Below, one piece after another: positions 24,777-62,807 of a DNA stretch of 64,000 nucleotides; within the stretch, counting starts at the first letter, position 1; every line of letters starts with the position of its first letter. This stretch comes from Christiangramia crocea. GTDB lineage: Bacteria > Bacteroidota > Bacteroidia > Flavobacteriales > Flavobacteriaceae. The position numbers and the translations under genes were made by a program. The DNA lies in assembly GCF_022410465.1 (NCBI RefSeq), contig NZ_JAJSON010000025.1, forward strand, positions 124,001 to 188,000, written 5' to 3'. Below the pieces are notes generated by a model. That model was not told where the DNA came from. It searched no databases and worked only from the letters and a program-made list of their open reading frames with translations.

Positions 24777-26063
24777 ATGCACATTAGAATCATCGGAACA
24801 CTTCTCTTTTTTAGCTCATTTATGGCAAATTCACAGGACACAGATCAGAAAATCATAGAAAAAGCAAAAGGCATCCATGAAAAAGTGATCACTATAGATA
24901 CTCATAATGATATCAATGTAAAGAATTTTACCAGTAACAAAAACTATACGATGGATCTCGGCACCCAGGTAAATCTTCCAAAAATGGAAGCCGGGGGTCT
25001 GGATGTAAGCTGGCTTATAGTCTATACGGGACAGGGAGAGCTAAATGAAGATGGATATGCCGCTGCTTATGAGAATGCCATTCAGAAGTTTGAGGCCATT
25101 CACCGTTTAACTGAAGAGATTGCCCCAGATAAGATAGGTCTGGCAACCGATTCTGATGAAGTTAGGAAACTTGTTGCCGAAGGAAAGAAAGTGGCGATGA
25201 TAGGTGTTGAAAATGCATATCCTGTAGCGGAGGATCTCAGCAGGATAAAGGAATTTTACGATCGTGGCGCCCGCTACATGTCATTATCACATAACGGACA
25301 CAGCCAGTTCTGCGACTCAAATACAGGAGAGGAAAACGATGAATGGTTGCATGGCGGATTAAGTGAACTGGGAAAAAAGGCAGTACTTGAAATGAATAAA
25401 TGGGGTATTATGATAGATGTCTCACATCCCAGTAAAGAAGCAATAAAGGAGATGTTCGAGATTTCCAGGGCTCCCTTGATCGCATCCCATTCTTCGGCTC
25501 GCGCTCTTTGTAACCATAGCAGGAATCTTGACGACGAATTGCTGGCACTGTTTAAAAAGCACGGCGGAGTGGTACATACGGTTGCTTTCAGTGCTTATCT
25601 GAATACAGAAAAGCATAATGCTTTTGACACCGCAAGTCAAAAGGTATTTCAGGAAAAAGCCAAAGAGATGAATTTTGAGATCCTTCCCAGAGATAGTGTG
25701 AGAAACCTTGAAGAAGATGCCCGGGAAAAATACTATGAATCCTACAGGACATTAAGACAGTCCTCGGCTCCTGAGATCGAAAAACTCAAAAATGAAATAA
25801 AACCAGTGAATGTTTCAGATTTTGTAGATCATATAGATTATCTGGTGGAAAAGATCGGGATAGATCATGTTGGAATAAGCTCAGATTTTGATGGTGGCGG
25901 CGGAATTGAAGGCTGGGACGATGCTTCCGAAACGCTTAATATTACTATTGAACTTGTGAAAAGAGGTTATTCCGAAGATGAGATAGCGAAACTTTGGGGT
26001 GAAAACCTGCTACGGGTTTTAGATGAAGTTCAGGCAGTGTCAGGAAAAATGCAAAAATCCTGA
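24777..26063 (+). CDS. Secreted membrane dipeptidase (peptidase M19, renal-dipeptidase family)
   Basis: A 428-residue zinc hydrolase with a short signal peptide (about 1-19, ending ANSQ). Metal-binding motifs run in order: TIDTHNDIN (H-x-D), GVENAYP (bridging glutamate), VSHPS and ASHSSARAL, and SSDFDGGGG. It cleaves dipeptides, including D-configured or beta-lactam-like ones, in the periplasm. It is divergent from the RimK-like ligase operon with about 118 bases between starts, so it may share regulation and possibly trim the operon's product. That link is inference. Confidence 0.92.
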   Translation: MHIRIIGTLLFFSSFMANSQDTDQKIIEKAKGIHEKVITIDTHNDINVKNFTSNKNYTMDLGTQVNLPKMEAGGLDVSWLIVYTGQGELNEDGYAAAYENAIQKFEAIHRLTEEIAPDKIGLATDSDEVRKLVAEGKKVAMIGVENAYPVAEDLSRIKEFYDRGARYMSLSHNGHSQFCDSNTGEENDEWLHGGLSELGKKAVLEMNKWGIMIDVSHPSKEAIKEMFEISRAPLIASHSSARALCNHSRNLDDELLALFKKHGGVVHTVAFSAYLNTEKHNAFDTASQKVFQEKAKEMNFEILPRDSVRNLEEDAREKYYESYRTLRQSSAPEIEKLKNEIKPVNVSDFVDHIDYLVEKIGIDHVGISSDFDGGGGIEGWDDASETLNITIELVKRGYSEDEIAKLWGENLLRVLDEVQAVSGKMQKS

Positions 26064-26918
26064 TCATTGTAGTTTGATCTCTTTAATAGTGGGAGCTCCA
26101 AATTTCCCTTCGTTGGAAACAAACAACCTGCCGGAAGGACTAAAACAAATACCTTCCGGTTGAGGGAATTCTGCTGGATCCAGTAAATGGATCTTTTTTA
26201 TTTTACCTGAATTCCTGTTCACAACAAGTATTTTCTGAAACTCTGCATCCAGTATATGAACATCCCCTGTGGATGGCTCGAAACAAAGATCGGAAGGCCT
26301 GATAAGTTTTCTGGGATTACTTGTCCTGAAAACATCAAATTCAGGATCATTGTATTTCACCTTTAATACCGGGTCCATATCAAGGATACCGGTTTCAGGG
26401 TTGAAGGAATAAATGCCTTTATAATCTCCCTGGTTATCAAGGTTCCTGTCCTTTACAGAAATCCACAGGTCACCGGCATCTGAAGCAGCGATACCTTCAA
26501 TATTGTTTCTGTATTCAAATTTTAACTTAACTTCTTCAGAATTTCCTTCGGGCCCATTTATATCCTCTACCCGCAATAACCTACCATTACTTTCTGCTAC
26601 CCAGTAATTATCTTCAAGAAGAGTTATTGCCTCATAATCGCCTCCTGCATCAAATCTATATTGTTTAACAATCCTCGAAGCCTTCAGATCATAAATGAAG
26701 ATTATTCCATCCTCATCCTGAATGCAGGCAATCTTATCTTCTCCTGCCCATTCCATTCCTGAAACTTCCCGCAGTTCACCAGGAAGTTCCCACTCCTCCA
26801 CTATTTCGTAGCTTTTTTCAGCATCACTAAAATCATAATCGTTATTCTCATAGACCGCATAAATAATTCCTGCAAGTATTAATACTGTAACAACTATTCC
26901 TATAGCCCATTTAGTCAT
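26064..26918 (-). CDS. SdiA-regulated family beta-propeller protein
   Basis: A 284-residue protein with an N-terminal membrane anchor (about 5-24, AIGIVVTVLILAGIIYAVY), so it faces the periplasm. The rest is a beta-propeller of the SdiA-regulated family (ELREVSGMEW, DYEAITLLEDNYWVAES, NIEGIAAS, IRPSDLCFEPSTGDVHILD, QPEGICFSPSGRLFVSNEG). Such proteins are similar to NHL or phytase-like propellers; their function is unknown. The stop is adjacent to the dipeptidase stop, so the genes converge without a visible terminator. Confidence 0.85.
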   Translation of the reverse strand: MTKWAIGIVVTVLILAGIIYAVYENNDYDFSDAEKSYEIVEEWELPGELREVSGMEWAGEDKIACIQDEDGIIFIYDLKASRIVKQYRFDAGGDYEAITLLEDNYWVAESNGRLLRVEDINGPEGNSEEVKLKFEYRNNIEGIAASDAGDLWISVKDRNLDNQGDYKGIYSFNPETGILDMDPVLKVKYNDPEFDVFRTSNPRKLIRPSDLCFEPSTGDVHILDAEFQKILVVNRNSGKIKKIHLLDPAEFPQPEGICFSPSGRLFVSNEGKFGAPTIKEIKLQ

Positions 26919-27141
26919 GAAGATCTATTTTGAAAAATAAAATTACAATTATGAGTTGCCTCCTCAAAAAGATTAACAATACTTTGAAGTAACCATGCCT
27001 CTGCTACAAGTGAATGATTTTTAACTAATTGACCCTAAAGTTAAAGTAATGTTAAATCAGTACCTTTTATTACATAGTACTGTAACAGAGTTTTTTTATC
27101 GTCGTCTATTAAGTACAAACAATCATTAAAATATTGAAATT
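26919..27141. promoter_or_regulatory. Upstream region of the peptide array
   Basis: This AT-rich leader ends in the first peptide start. It holds an inverted repeat CAGTAC (27058-27063) and GTACTG (27077-27082) with 13 bases between, followed by a T7 run at 27091-27097; TACCTTTT (27061-27068) is a near match to the -7 element. These could be a promoter or operator with a long leader, or a weak attenuator. No protein gene is seen. Confidence 0.35.
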
Positions 27142-27243
27142 ATGACAACTTTTGTAAGTAACACCAAGAACAGAAAATCTTTTATGAATACCGAAGCTAA
27201 TACACCCCCATTTAGTTTCTCCAGTAGAAGAAGATTCATTTAA
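27142..27243 (+). CDS. Array peptide 1 (33 residues, family A)
   Basis: A 33-residue basic peptide: MTTFVSNTKNRKS, then FMNTEAN, a variable PPFSFSS segment and the end RRRFI. It has no signal peptide, cysteine or membrane helix. The N-terminal 20 residues are nearly identical to those of peptides 2 and 3, and their differences from peptide 2 are mostly silent (four synonymous, two conservative changes), which argues for selection on the protein. Unlike the other four, it lacks the TCATCAATC leader. I know no family for it. Confidence 0.7.
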   Translation: MTTFVSNTKNRKSFMNTEANTPPFSFSSRRRFI

Positions 27244-27273
27244 TCAATCATCAACAATTAAAAATCATCAATC

Positions 27274-27375
27274 ATGACAACTTTAGTTAGTAACACCAAA
27301 AGCAGAAAATCTTTTATGAACACAGAAGCTAATGCATCACAAAACAGCTTCTATGGTAGAAGAAGGTACATTTAA
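27274..27375 (+). CDS. Array peptide 2 (33 residues, family A)
   Basis: A 33-residue paralogue of peptide 1: MTTLVSNTKSRKS, FMNTEAN, variable ASQNSFYG, end RRRYI. The start lies right after the TCATCAATC motif. The reading frame, length and both ends match peptide 1 although third codon positions differ, so the ORF is very probably translated. Function unknown. Confidence 0.75.
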   Translation: MTTLVSNTKSRKSFMNTEANASQNSFYGRRRYI

Positions 27376-27411
27376 ACAAACTTATTCATCAACAATTAAA
27401 ATTCATCAATC

Positions 27412-27507
27412 ATGAGAACTCTAGCAGGTAACACCAAGAACAGAAAGCTTTTTATGAACACAGAAGCTAATGCCGGAAACTCTATTTTCAATAGAAGGAT
27501 TCATTAA
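27412..27507 (+). CDS. Array peptide 3 (31 residues, family A)
   Basis: A 31-residue peptide: MRTLAGNTKNRKL, FMNTEAN, variable AGNSIF, end NRRIH. It is the most divergent member of family A at its carboxy end, and it lost two residues compared with peptides 1 and 2. It is preceded by TCATCAATC. Function unknown. Confidence 0.72.
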   Translation: MRTLAGNTKNRKLFMNTEANAGNSIFNRRIH

Positions 27508-27536
27508 CATGCATTAAATTTTAAATTTCATCAATC

Positions 27537-27671
27537 ATGAGAACTTTAGACAGTATTATCCAGGATTTTGGTTCAAGTAAAGAAGGAGGCTTAACACATA
27601 GAAGGCCATTTTTGAACCTGAAGAACCCAACCATTCATTTGCACTGGTATCATCAAAGACAATTTGCATAA
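27537..27671 (+). CDS. Array peptide 4 (44 residues, family B)
   Basis: A 44-residue peptide: MRTLDSIIQDFGSS, KEGGLTHRRPFLN, a variable segment rich in H and N, WYHQRQFA at the end. It differs from family A by an inserted IIQDF...EG-x-LTH block, but it keeps the shared R-[KR]-x-F-[ML]-N core and an aromatic-basic end. Preceded by TCATCAATC. No known family recognised. Confidence 0.72.
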   Translation: MRTLDSIIQDFGSSKEGGLTHRRPFLNLKNPTIHLHWYHQRQFA

Positions 27672-27708
27672 TTCATCAACATTAATCATCAATCAAAATT
27701 CATCAATC

Positions 27709-27843
27709 ATGACAGCTTTTTCTAATATCATCCAGGATTTTGCCACAGGAAGAGAAGGGAATTTAACTCATCGAAAATCCTTTTTAAACTTTAAAAGTAC
27801 CGCCGGAAGAACGTGCTGGTATTCAAGAAGACGTTACGCATAA
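27709..27843 (+). CDS. Array peptide 5 (44 residues, family B)
   Basis: A 44-residue paralogue of peptide 4: MTAFSNIIQDFATG, REGNLTHRKSFLN, variable FKSTAGRTC, end WYSRRRYA. It has the only cysteine of the five. Compared with peptide 4, at least six codons differ only synonymously (ATT/ATC, GGA/GGG, ACA/ACT, AGA/CGA, TTG/TTA, AAG/AAA). Preceded by TCATCAATC and followed by a strong terminator. Confidence 0.75.
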   Translation: MTAFSNIIQDFATGREGNLTHRKSFLNFKSTAGRTCWYSRRRYA

Positions 27844-27881
27844 TCCAACAAAAATCCCCTCGTATGAAAATTATTTCAACC

Positions 27882-27915
27882 TAGCCGGTGAACCGCAGTT
27901 CACCGGCTATAATTT
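27882..27915 (+). terminator. Terminator of the peptide array
   Basis: A perfect 12-bp stem (arms 27882-27893 and 27898-27909) with a 4-base loop CGCA, followed by TAATTTTT. It ends the array transcript 39 bases after the last stop and separates it from the PBP gene. Confidence 0.85.
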
Positions 27916-27999
27916 TTGGTTAAAAAACATTAAAATAAGCTTAAAATTGAAGGTCCTGCTTTAAACATTTGTTTATTTGCAGCTTTTACCTTCATACAA

Positions 28000-30297
28000 A
28001 TGCTAGAAAAAATAAAACGGCATCCCAAACTCAAATGGGCACTGATAATTCTATTAAGTTTAATTGCCCTTTTCTTTCTATTCTTTGGCAGCATCTATTT
28101 TGGAATGTGGGGCAAGATCCCAACGTCAAAAGAGCTTACTGAACTTAAACAAAACAAAGCCACCCAGGTACTGGCGGCCAATGGCGAACTTATAGGGAAG
28201 TTTTATGTTTACGATAGACAGCCCATAGAATTCTCCCAGCTGCCCCCTTATCTTATAGAAGCTCTTATCGCAACGGAAGATGCAAGATTCTATGAACACG
28301 ATGGTATTGATAACCGCAGTCTATTAAGGGTCTTCTTTAAATCTATTTTACTCCAGGACGAGTCGGCAGGAGGCGGTAGTACCATCACTCTCCAACTGGC
28401 CAAGAATATATATGGCAGGCGGGATTTTGGAATATTCGGGATCGTGATAAACAAGATGCAGGAAGCCATCATCGCTAAGCGCCTGGAGGATATTTATTCC
28501 AAAGATGAAATCATAGAACTCTATTTCAATACCGTCCCTTTCAGTGATAACACCTACGGGATAGAAAGTGCTTCGCTTAAATTCTTCGATAAGAACACCT
28601 CTGAACTGAATCTTGAAGAAGCTGCGGTTCTGGTTGGAATGCTCAAAGCCAGTCATTATTACAATCCCAGAATATTCCCTGAAAGAAGTCGGTTAAGACG
28701 TGATGTAGTGCTTATGCAAATGGCTAAATATGACTATTTAAGCATGGAAGAAGCTGAAGAAGCCAAAATGCAGCCAATGGTTCTGGACTATAAAAGTTAC
28801 AGCCATGATGAAGGGATTGCACCTTATTTCAGGGAACAAGTAAGAAAAAAAGTTAGCAGGGTTCTGGATACCCTGAAGAACAAGGACGGAAAGAAATACA
28901 ACATCTACAGGGATGGTCTCATTGTTCATACTACTCTCAATTATAAGATGCAGCAGCTGGCAGAAGAAGCGATGATAGAGCATATGACCGCATTACAGGA
29001 ACAGCATGAGAACTCCTACGGAAATTATGCCCCATGGATCAGGAATAAAGAAATACTTCAGGATGCGATAAAAAAATCTGACAGATATCAAAAACTACAG
29101 AAAGAAGGGTTGAGTGAGGCTGCGATCATGGAAAAGATGGATCAATCACATCCCACTGAACTATTTAGTTATGATGGCATGGAAACCAAAAATGTGAGTG
29201 CCATAGATAGCATCTCTCATTATCTGAAATTTCTTAATTCAGGATTGCTAGCCGTGGATCCTGGAAATGGAGCTGTTCAGGCATGGGTAGGTGGTGTTGA
29301 TTTCAGGTTCTTTAAATACGATCATGTTGCTCAAAGCAAGAGACAAGTGGGATCTACCTTTAAACCTGTAGTATATGCTGCGGCTCTGGAAAGTGGCATG
29401 GATCCCTGCTCCTATTTCTCGGTGAGAGAAGTGACCTATGAGGATGGCTGGACACCTTCAAATTCCTCTTCTGAAGGTGACGATCCCCATATGAACTATA
29501 ACCTTAAAATGGCCTTAAGCCGTTCCATGAATACTATAGCGGTCAAGGTCCTGATGGAAACTGGCATTGGAAATGTTATCAACCAGGCCAGGAAAATGGG
29601 GATAGAGTCTAATCTTCCCGAAGTCCCATCAATAGCCCTGGGGACTGCCTCTTTAAGCTTAAGCGAACTTACAACAGCATACACCAGTTTTGTGAATAAT
29701 GGGCATTATTCTGAACCTTACTATATAAGCAGGATTGAAGACGGGAATGGTAATCTGCTGGCTGAATTCAAGCCTGAAATCTCCAAATCCAGAGCCTTTT
29801 CAGAAAAGACCCGGAAGATCATGATCAATATGATGCAGGCTACGGTAAATGAAGGAACGGCTGCCAGACTAAGGTACAGATATGGACTTCGTAATGACCT
29901 GGCTGGAAAAACAGGGACCACGCAGGATAATAAGGACGGATGGTTCGTAGGTATGAATCCGGAACTCGTTTGCGTAACCTGGGTGGGAAATGATGATCAC
30001 AGGATAGGTTTCAGGAACACTGCCATAGGTCAGGGCGCTAATTCTGCCCTACCAATATTTGGCGGATTAATGCAGAAGATGAATGCAGATTCTGCCTTTG
30101 ACGAGATCACTGGTTCAAGGTTCACTCCTCTTTCATCTGAAATGGCTGAAATGATGGAGTGCCCGCCACAGGAGAGAGATAACTTCCTGGAACGTCTCTT
30201 TTCCGGAAGCGACCAAAAGAGAGAAAACAAACCCAAAAAGAAGAAAAAGAAAAAAGGTTTCTTTCAGCGTTTATTCGGAAAAAATGATGATAATTAA
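28000..30297 (+). CDS. Class A penicillin-binding protein (PBP1A-type)
   Basis: A 765-residue bifunctional peptidoglycan synthase. One N-terminal membrane helix (about 13-36) precedes the GT51 glycosyltransferase (motifs ATEDARFYEHDGID, GGGSTITLQLAKN, KRLEDIYSKDEIIELYFN). The transpeptidase domain has the serine box GSTFKP (S-x-x-K), RSMN (S-x-N) and KTGTT. The C-terminus is a strongly basic tail of repeated K. It polymerises and cross-links peptidoglycan in the periplasm. This is the PBP1A-like form common in Flavobacteriaceae. The gene stands alone between two terminated units. Confidence 0.96.
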   Translation: MLEKIKRHPKLKWALIILLSLIALFFLFFGSIYFGMWGKIPTSKELTELKQNKATQVLAANGELIGKFYVYDRQPIEFSQLPPYLIEALIATEDARFYEHDGIDNRSLLRVFFKSILLQDESAGGGSTITLQLAKNIYGRRDFGIFGIVINKMQEAIIAKRLEDIYSKDEIIELYFNTVPFSDNTYGIESASLKFFDKNTSELNLEEAAVLVGMLKASHYYNPRIFPERSRLRRDVVLMQMAKYDYLSMEEAEEAKMQPMVLDYKSYSHDEGIAPYFREQVRKKVSRVLDTLKNKDGKKYNIYRDGLIVHTTLNYKMQQLAEEAMIEHMTALQEQHENSYGNYAPWIRNKEILQDAIKKSDRYQKLQKEGLSEAAIMEKMDQSHPTELFSYDGMETKNVSAIDSISHYLKFLNSGLLAVDPGNGAVQAWVGGVDFRFFKYDHVAQSKRQVGSTFKPVVYAAALESGMDPCSYFSVREVTYEDGWTPSNSSSEGDDPHMNYNLKMALSRSMNTIAVKVLMETGIGNVINQARKMGIESNLPEVPSIALGTASLSLSELTTAYTSFVNNGHYSEPYYISRIEDGNGNLLAEFKPEISKSRAFSEKTRKIMINMMQATVNEGTAARLRYRYGLRNDLAGKTGTTQDNKDGWFVGMNPELVCVTWVGNDDHRIGFRNTAIGQGANSALPIFGGLMQKMNADSAFDEITGSRFTPLSSEMAEMMECPPQERDNFLERLFSGSDQKRENKPKKKKKKKGFFQRLFGKNDDN

Positions 30298-61691: not shown

Positions 61692-62099
61692 ATGAATCCG
61701 AGAGATATTAACCTAATGGAACTCAGACCTGAGATTCCTTCAGCAAGGATTACAGAAAACATGAGTTCAGATGAGAGGTTTCAGAATGAAACGCTTCGAC
61801 CTGTAGCGAAACTACAGGATGATTTACTGGTGGCAGCTTTCCGGAATTATATCACCAAGCATAAAAATGCATTTTATGATCTTGATCTGGAGAAAAGGTT
61901 ACTGTATATTGAAAATGCCATTCAAAAGGATATCAAATTCAGAAACAGTCTTAAGGGAATGATCATCGGGCAGTTTACCCTTCAGGAGTATGAAACCTAT
62001 ATCCGGAATTCTTCAGCCCTGAATAAACGAATGATGAATATTGTAAAAGAAAGGCTTCAGGCCAATATTCAGCTTTTAGAACGCGACCTGGCGTACTAA
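61692..62099 (+). CDS. Conserved helical hypothetical protein
   Basis: A 135-residue soluble, mostly helical, charged protein: MNPRDINLMELRPEIPSAR, then a helical rest rich in E, R and K with LEKRLLYIENAIQKD and ALNKRMMNIVKERL. No recognised domain; proteins of this kind are sometimes labelled glyoxalase in databases by mistake, but no VOC motif is seen here. It overlaps the converging DUF3307 gene by 24 bases. Confidence 0.6.
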   Translation: MNPRDINLMELRPEIPSARITENMSSDERFQNETLRPVAKLQDDLLVAAFRNYITKHKNAFYDLDLEKRLLYIENAIQKDIKFRNSLKGMIIGQFTLQEYETYIRNSSALNKRMMNIVKERLQANIQLLERDLAY

Positions 62100-62807
62100 A
62101 AAACCTATCAGGATAGTAATGGTAAAGCTCATAAGGGTTCCTATGAGCACGTACTCGGTTTGCTTTCTGGCACCAGTTTCAGATTTATCGCTGAAACGCA
62201 GAATTGATTTTGCTGCGATCAAAAACCCTATTGCCGAAAAATTGAGGGTAAGTATAAAGGTTAGAACTAAAACCCTTTCAAAAATTCCAATATATCTGCC
62301 GGCAGCATCCAGACTGTTTCGCCTAAGATCATCTTCTACTTCGTTTTGCCATCTCTGGGTTGCTTTCCCTATAAGGAAACCGGCAGGAAAAATTATAACC
62401 AGATAACCTATGAGTATTGCCATTATGGTTTCCGAACTTAGCAGATCAGATAGATATGGGATTATACTCTGAAAATTAGATGTGATCCAGAGCCAGGCCA
62501 GGACTATCGCAAAGAGATGCAGAATCTGGTCTGATAAAAATATTTTCAGACTGTCCCGGTGGAACTGTAGTTTCCATAGGTCAGTAAAAAAGTGCGTGAA
62601 GCTTATAAAAACAGCCACATACCAGTACTCTATCCTCATCAGGAAAATAAGGGTAAGCACCCCGGCAATTATCGCATGCAGGTAAAGGAATTTAGATTTT
62701 GCTTTATGTCTTCGCTTGTGCTGAACCCATCTGGTAGGCTGTATCACAAAATCAGTGATCACATGGGCAAGCAATAATTGTAAGAGAATGAGTATACTAT
62801 TTTCCAT
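62076..62807 (-). CDS. DUF3307 membrane protein
   Basis: A 243-residue protein with about five to six hydrophobic segments, including the DUF3307 start ILILLQLLLAHVITDFVIQP and HAIIAGVLTLIFL, FTHFFTDLWKL. ATG at 62807 overlaps the end of the SatD gene by 11 bases; ATG at 62822 is also possible and would give five extra residues. SatD and DUF3307 genes are paired in many Bacteroidota. Function unknown. Confidence 0.85.
   Translation of the reverse strand: MENSILILLQLLLAHVITDFVIQPTRWVQHKRRHKAKSKFLYLHAIIAGVLTLIFLMRIEYWYVAVFISFTHFFTDLWKLQFHRDSLKIFLSDQILHLFAIVLAWLWITSNFQSIIPYLSDLLSSETIMAILIGYLVIIFPAGFLIGKATQRWQNEVEDDLRRNSLDAAGRYIGIFERVLVLTFILTLNFSAIGFLIAAKSILRFSDKSETGARKQTEYVLIGTLMSFTITILIGFLVRQVAF

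Follow-up and report, generated by a model that had tools for sequence, protein, structure and literature searches.

Tandem arrays of small basic peptide genes behind a probable ECF-type promoter in the Flavobacteriaceae

Analysis of five short tandem genes in Christiangramia crocea, which lay in the window (the whole stretch of DNA analysed, 64,000 nucleotides), revealed that they belonged to a gene set found in 115 of the 236 sampled genera of the Flavobacteriaceae, yet the set matched no curated model and no paper on it was found. Judged from sequence, the set could well be a dosage array of intracellular cationic mini-proteins that is driven by an ECF sigma factor and used in stress; we consider the case for this reading to be about evenly balanced.

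The peptide genes of the window and their surroundings

Reading of the open reading frames and alignment placed the peptide genes A1 (27142..27243, 33 aa), A2 (27274..27375, 33 aa), A3 (27412..27507, 31 aa), B1 (27537..27671, 44 aa), and B2 (27709..27843, 44 aa; also identified by the genus search) in a row on the + strand, as the original prediction had stated. The spacers given by these coordinates were 30, 36, 29, and 37 nt, consistent with the predicted range of 29-37 nt. The predicted shared core was present in all five peptides (RKSFMN in A1 and A2, RKLFMN in A3, RRPFLN in B1, and RKSFLN in B2), and their C-terminal ends were RRFI, RRYI, RRIH, RQFA, and RRYA, respectively, also as described. 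The array was flanked on one side by a 284-aa gene on the opposite strand (26064-26918), which had no Pfam match at 1e-5 and which we take to resemble an SdiA-regulated/phytase-like protein, and on the other side by the gene of a bifunctional penicillin-binding protein with transglycosylase and transpeptidase domains (PBP1A, 28000-30297). A strong intrinsic terminator on the + strand (27882..27919), composed of a 12-pair stem at 27882-27909 followed by TAATTTTTGG, separated the array from PBP1A, and the region 27850-27925 showed a fold z of -4.86. The proposed transcription unit of the window ended at this terminator and contained no immunity, transporter, or other further gene. The five frames may well be read as this one unit, from the ECF sigma promoter described below to the terminator before pbp1A. 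Upstream, beyond the 284-aa gene, an M19 membrane dipeptidase gene was observed at 24777-26063; relatives of it, recognised by eye, also adjoined the arrays in L046, L061, and L067, and this neighbourhood is probably an old synteny.

The arrangement of the terminator bears on the idea that the frames encode leader peptides, with attenuation, or stalling of the ribosome at their Arg-rich ends, controlling the gene that follows (pbp1A). Tandem Arg codons near the stop are compatible with this idea, and at two other loci an ORF was found 16 nt (L267) and 42 nt (L263) before a permease or ABC gene. However, in the window the last copy was followed by the terminator and then by some 80-90 nt before pbp1A, the downstream genes differed between genera, and attenuation needs no tandem copies. 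A role as leader peptides is decidedly unlikely.

The ORFs are protein-coding genes under protein-level selection. The Ka/Ks comparison was run as pN/pS, and the in-frame values were clearly below 1 (0.37-0.47) in four sets of related peptides with 28, 26, 69, and 63 copies. The pooled pN/pS of the A type was 0.37 for 28 copies, with pN lower than pS in 373 of 378 pairs, and that of the B type was 0.43 for 26 copies, with pN lower than pS in all 220 equal-length pairs, the B-type copies from the second locus described below being included. These values bore out the earlier observation that the changes between copies were mostly silent. When the same DNA was read in the wrong frames, the ratios were 1.31 and 0.55 for the A type and 0.96 and 1.03 for the B type; the low value in one wrong frame is a caveat for the A type. 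Searches with the peptides also returned homologues in related genomes that kept the frame. Because of the in-frame pN/pS and the fixed place of the array in the genus, the ORFs behave as genes, and the peptides are almost certainly made as proteins. The frame statistics and the folds led us to reject a noncoding repeat.

A different possibility is an array of regulatory RNAs, in which the units would function as small RNAs, with ORFs that would be incidental or secondary. The units are repeated and have their own promoter and terminator, and the portion of PMC9723704 used here places the F. psychrophilum sRNA Rfp11 under an ECF-type promoter. Selection, however, acts on the protein frame, and no fold beyond chance was detected in the five array units (z from -1.08 to +0.75, with the final two units cut short). 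In addition, the peptide lengths were kept (69 of 83 motif hits had 28 aa and 63 of 66 had 37 aa) while the spacers between ORFs of related arrays varied, with quartiles of 37 to 58 nt. Protein-coding genes are therefore preferred, and an RNA array appears quite improbable.

Within the genus, peptide B2 matched 23 of 24 genomes, and the single miss was a genome that was 67% complete. At all 21 same-genus locus-1 places that were read, the same two genes flanked the array; genomes G003 and G012, in which only another locus was read, are outside the 21. The copy number varied from one to four for the A type, with none recognised in L020 and L023, and from one to three for the B type.

A second locus was observed in the four genomes of the genus in which it was read, namely in the own genome (L005:6765-7380; contig C29, about 61764-62380) and in L025, L026, and L039. 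It contained one or two B-type peptides of 45 aa and a third conserved peptide (..QxPRxMxxG..RLAETVxIR). Its neighbours were an M3 oligopeptidase gene (assigned by Pfam, in L005 only) and, on the other side, an AraC-like gene in L005 and L039 or, judged by eye, a flavodoxin-like gene in L025 and L026. Upstream of this locus, all four genomes had a palindrome resembling AAAGGGGATTATTCCCCTTT (by eye in L005), and no match to AAAGGGGATTATTCCCCTTT was found in the window. Behind the third peptide (L005:7215-7380 and the corresponding positions in L025, L026, and L039) lay a strongly structured RNA with a z of -5.30 in L005, the arms of which changed together in the four sequences when compared by eye. 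Its invariant CATTCATCAATCA, which was unpaired in the L005 fold, resembled the letters before the start codons of the peptides. This RNA had no Rfam match at the cut-off and may be a decoy or regulatory RNA.

The promoter and its link to peptide arrays

ECF promoters generally contain an AAC motif in the -35 element and CGT in the -10 element. Upstream of the array, a -35 element of the ECF-sigma type, TGTAAC, was located at 27081..27086 on the + strand from its spacing and from alignment over related loci, and a -10 element, CGTCTA, was located by alignment at 27103..27108 on the same strand. The combined TGTAAC-N16-CGTC at 27081-27106 thus showed the AAC, the CGTC, and the distance of about 16-17 bp by which ECF promoters are recognised; the near-invariant form of the promoter before the array was ATAGTACTGTAAC-N16-CGTCT. 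In the portion of PMC9723704 used here, a CGT box at -10 marks the sigma-ECF promoters of Flavobacterium psychrophilum. Since the elements and their spacing match those of ECF sigma promoters, the array is very probably under ECF-type control. Just upstream of the -35 element lay an imperfect inverted repeat, TACCTTT-TATTA-CATAGTA (27061..27079, + strand). An alignment of 79 promoters from named genomes showed it to be conserved, with the consensus TACTWTG-N5-CATAGTA. In the window, only four of the seven positions of the left half agree with the complement of the right half. The repeat is a putative binding site of a dimeric regulator.

The promoter was found at 21 of 21 genus loci, at 15 of them by the first pattern (L024 with a 17-bp spacer) and at the other six as variants, five with CGTCTTTTA and one (L020) with CCGTAAC. 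In the own genome the 35-bp promoter had a single site at three or fewer mismatches, and the backwards control had two. The core TGTAAC-N17-GTCTA had a second own-genome site, before an unrelated protease-like gene, so that the claim of a single target is limited to the long promoter. The peptide types of the window were found in only two genera besides its own across 249 family genomes (236 genera), the B type matching three genomes and the A type two, with the own genome included. The loci in these two other genera, L045 and L046, also carried the upstream DNA of the window, as TACATAGTACTGTAAC, 16 bases, and CGTCTATTA (AGTCTATTA in L046). Both window neighbours were kept in L045, and L046, at a contig end, adjoined an M19-dipeptidase-like gene.

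The exact promoter with CGTCTATTA was present in 20 of the 249 family genomes (20 of the 236 genera, own included), and the control gave 0. Of the 22 promoter places that were read, all except L055 and L063 had arrays whose short basic peptides differed widely in sequence. A scan with the promoter alone returned at least 117 loci, 80 of which were shown with names; among the matches listed, these 80 were labelled Flavobacteriaceae, Flavobacteriia, Flavobacteriales, 'Bacteroidetes bacterium', or by genus names that we take to be those of Flavobacteriaceae genera. An array of one to five small basic peptides followed the promoter at 108 of 112 evaluable loci among the matches listed (at least 117), L089, L090, L117, L160, and L183 having been left out for too little sequence; with a slightly different cut the result was 106 of 110 promoters, again among the matches listed. 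The same motifs were found in 4 of 427 stretches elsewhere in those loci and in 1 of 110 Markov-shuffled controls, and these controls guard in part against the fact that the family motif patterns were written after part of the same loci had been viewed. The spacer to CGTCT was exactly 16 in 117 of 117 loci among the matches listed, with 15-18 allowed. Within a sample of the phylum, the promoter with CGTCT occurred in 4 of 395 genomes, that is, in 4 of the 41 of Flavobacteriaceae and in 0 of the 354 outside. The promoter is thus a simple handle, by which most arrays are found without knowledge of the peptides.

The four loci without an array among the matches listed were L102, L105, L148, and L186, and in L102 the promoter stood before nothing recognised. 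In L055, L063, L105, L148, and L186, the promoter was observed before a protein of 151-188 aa (187-188 aa in L055 and L063) that replaced the peptide array. This protein had a signal-like, secreted-looking start (MKTT/MKTI..KYLLTFLLSxLFT..).

The link was also followed from the peptides to the promoter. The 28-aa profile matched 89 of the 249 family genomes (86 of 236 genera) and the 37-aa profile 30 (29 genera); the 115 genera given above are the union of the peptide families, and three genera were in both large sets. Of the best 60 loci by peptide score, 59 were readable, and GTAAC-N16-CGTC was found upstream in 51 of them (control, 2 of 144). The full promoter was present at 41 of these 59 loci and the core was absent at eight, L236 being scored as a miss though its promoter was visible at the same place read as L271. 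The two search directions are not fully independent, because the loci from which the peptide profiles were made had been found with the promoter, and 11 of the 60 came from genomes already matched by the exact promoter. The peptide-to-promoter link is a strong check, short of an independent one.

The arrays are usually, though not always, controlled by the core. Three further loci of genome G028 (L259-L261) kept TGTAAC-N16-CGTC...GTATAA and carried TGTTAAC-type repeats instead of the TACTWTG/CATAGTA element, and the upstream element therefore looks like an exchangeable operator. In 20 hand-picked secondary regions, a peptide was recognised by motif in 19 (not in L272), the core pattern with a 15-18 spacer was present in seven, and L276 had TGTAGC in a variant of the core. 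Where single peptides lacked the core, they were located inside transporter operons (L263 and L267) or elsewhere. A link of the arrays to an adjoining sigma gene was considered and rejected, since four ECF queries found ECF genes near only 4 of the 80 named loci and 2 of the 37 others, or 6 of 117 among the matches listed (L103, L135, L138, L152, L164, and L170). ECF-like genes were also found near four secondary loci (L265, L266, L268, and L269).

Peptide families and their common design

The array peptides were mostly of 28, 33, or 37 aa, often followed by one of 44 aa, and commonly had the C-terminal end aromatic-xx-basic-R-[RN]-[FY]. The consensus was MRTLNxNQ...KSxxWNxKRRYR for the 28-aa family, ..TPTESR..SFFSxFKxSKRVRWAExRNYxx for the 37-aa family, ..RKSFMNTEAN..RRRF. 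for window A, and ..HRRPFLN..WYNRRxxA for window B. Among the motif hits, the C-terminal signature was present in 123 of 125 of the 28-aa type, 80 of 92 of the 37-aa type, 9 of 19 of the A/B type, and none of the 9 of the GFGW type; the part of A and B that varied least was the central core. An ORF of 40-50 aa directly followed 43 of the 70 arrays of the 28-aa family and was exactly 44 aa long in 28 of these, and the best-defined group of this 44-aa last peptide ended in ..WKGxKRYAH. The order in the window was parallel, with the 44-aa B after A. Another type of peptide, of about 37-42 aa and with a G-x-GW motif, was observed, often as the first gene, in L082, L088, L124, L153, L154, and others.

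A and B were homologous, with 94.7% (E 5.7e-8) in hhalign. The original prediction had missed this homology, and likewise the terminator, the ECF-type promoter, and the much larger set of arrays. The profile of A matched that of the 28-aa family at 91.8%, and by this chain of matches A, B, and the 28-aa type are assigned to one superfamily. Weaker matches were obtained for B with the 28-aa family (15.2%), for the 44-aa last peptide with B (31.4%), and for the 37-aa family with A (19.7%) and with the 28-aa family (3.1%). The 37-aa and 44-aa types would join by their design and promoter, short of proof. AlphaFold models were poor, with mean pLDDT of 61 and 66 and short helices only.

None of the five window peptides had a match at the curated cut-offs of Pfam and NCBIfam, so the statement that no family could be named held good. 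Seven related peptides and the third peptide of the second locus gave only weak noise in Pfam/NCBIfam, the best Rfam score in the array was 19.4 bits against a cut-off of 100 and not believable, and the literature searches found nothing on these peptides. The tandem mini-gene set is apparently undescribed and matches no curated protein model tried. The idea of a ribosomal protein was rejected, as no PDB chain was found for two peptide profiles and the two matches of the 37-aa profile, both cytokine receptor chains (E 0.016 and 0.031), were taken as chance.

Of 291 peptides from the at least 117 promoter loci, 277 had a net charge of +4 or more, and the median was +6; part of this charge follows from the K/R that the motif patterns require. 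Hydropathy was the sole criterion for signal peptides, and a hydrophobic stretch (15-residue mean hydropathy above 1.6) was present in 1 of the 291 related-array peptides. Among the 28 commonest flanking clusters of the 80 listed loci, named by eye, were ExbD-like (14), EamA-like (9), and MFS-like (6) genes, with no export, immunity, or modification gene more frequent than these, and the commonest cluster of any kind flanked 22 of the 80. The original interpretation therefore stood in part: an expanded basic-peptide family with selection at the protein level was upheld, whereas neither secretion nor modification found support, since hydrophobic stretches were nearly absent and, judged by eye, no export, immunity, or modification gene was kept beside most arrays.

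The same data weigh on three further explanations. Secreted antimicrobial peptides of the leaderless bacteriocin type would be released to kill competitors. Many antimicrobial peptides are cationic and carry W/F and Arg close to the C terminus, and the array peptides have this composition; their divergence between genera and the position of two single-copy genes (L263 and L267) next to ABC transporter genes also agree with this role. However, 290 of the 291 related peptides had no hydrophobic stretch, and no transporter or immunity gene was kept beside most arrays at the 80 listed loci when genes were named by eye, which makes such a function unlikely. RiPP precursors for a modified natural product would likewise be short, multi-copy peptides with a conserved motif, but here no separate leader and core were found, the constant positions being central and C-terminal, and no modification enzyme was recognised by eye in the 28 commonest flanking clusters, so that this origin is hardly probable at all. 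Tandem small ORFs in close copies could also be type I toxin-like peptides or phage or plasmid cargo. Against this, the peptides were not hydrophobic, 22 members of the 28-aa family had no PHROG match and six peptides no PADLOC match, the window array had no plasmid or phage DNA match, the promoter occurred in 0 viral contigs, and the array has a fixed chromosomal place in the genus; toxins or cargo are very unlikely. A phage or plasmid origin as such was rejected after the PHROG, viral-contig, and plasmid/phage DNA searches had all given no support.

Proposed function and comparison with known systems

In the preferred reading of an ECF-driven dosage array, stress would free one ECF sigma factor, with which RNA polymerase would read the array, and a dimeric regulator would probably bind just upstream of the -35 element. 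The tandem close copies would act as a dose multiplier and produce a burst of mini-proteins. Strongly basic and without a membrane-spanning stretch, the peptides would stay in the cell, and they might equally be or not be intracellular stress effectors. Our guess is that they would bind a polyanion, either the inner membrane face or RNA (of the ribosome or another kind). Their basic-aromatic parts would make the contact, namely the aromatic-xx-basic-Arg-[Arg/Asn]-aromatic motif at the C terminus and, in the window types, also the central R-x-F-[LM]-N core. The ribosome or RNA as the target is rather doubtful when taken singly, and the membrane face is doubtful to the same degree. A wider reading, which is tentative, is a family-wide micro-regulon in which one ECF sigma factor would have as its sole strong target in each genome an array of stress effectors of a new class, binding the ribosome or the inner membrane face via the basic-aromatic end. 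The promoter would then be kept more strictly than the proteins, so that the peptide sequence would drift with charge, length, and end held. The sigma factor and its target, once found, would open the stress response of a large bacterial family.

ECF regulons and small proteins made under stress are known; a family-wide, promoter-linked dosage array is new as far as our searches reach. In E. coli, YcgZ/YmgABC are very short, non-secreted stress proteins that are encoded side by side under one stress regulator. The array peptides, likened to them by description only, are also very short, with side-by-side genes and proposed stress control. To our knowledge, small proteins of the YcgZ/YmgABC type are neither tandem close copies nor ECF-driven. 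The array peptides resemble cationic antimicrobial peptides in being small and basic with Arg/Trp near the end, but differ from them in that no hydrophobic leader or kept immunity gene was seen and in their purifying selection and single promoter type. Among promoters, the SM6 sigma-ECF motif of F. psychrophilum is like the array promoter in its CGT box in the -10 element and its assignment to an ECF sigma factor, in the portion of PMC9723704 used here. The SM6 targets in the selection given in Table 2 of that paper, as distinct from the full list in its Table S2, comprise T9SS, Band-7, rhamnose, and other genes, an ECF/anti-sigma operon, and the sRNA Rfp11, and include no peptide array. Compared with SM6 as given there (PMC9723704), the array promoter is distinguished by its extra conserved 19-bp upstream element and by its one own-genome site.
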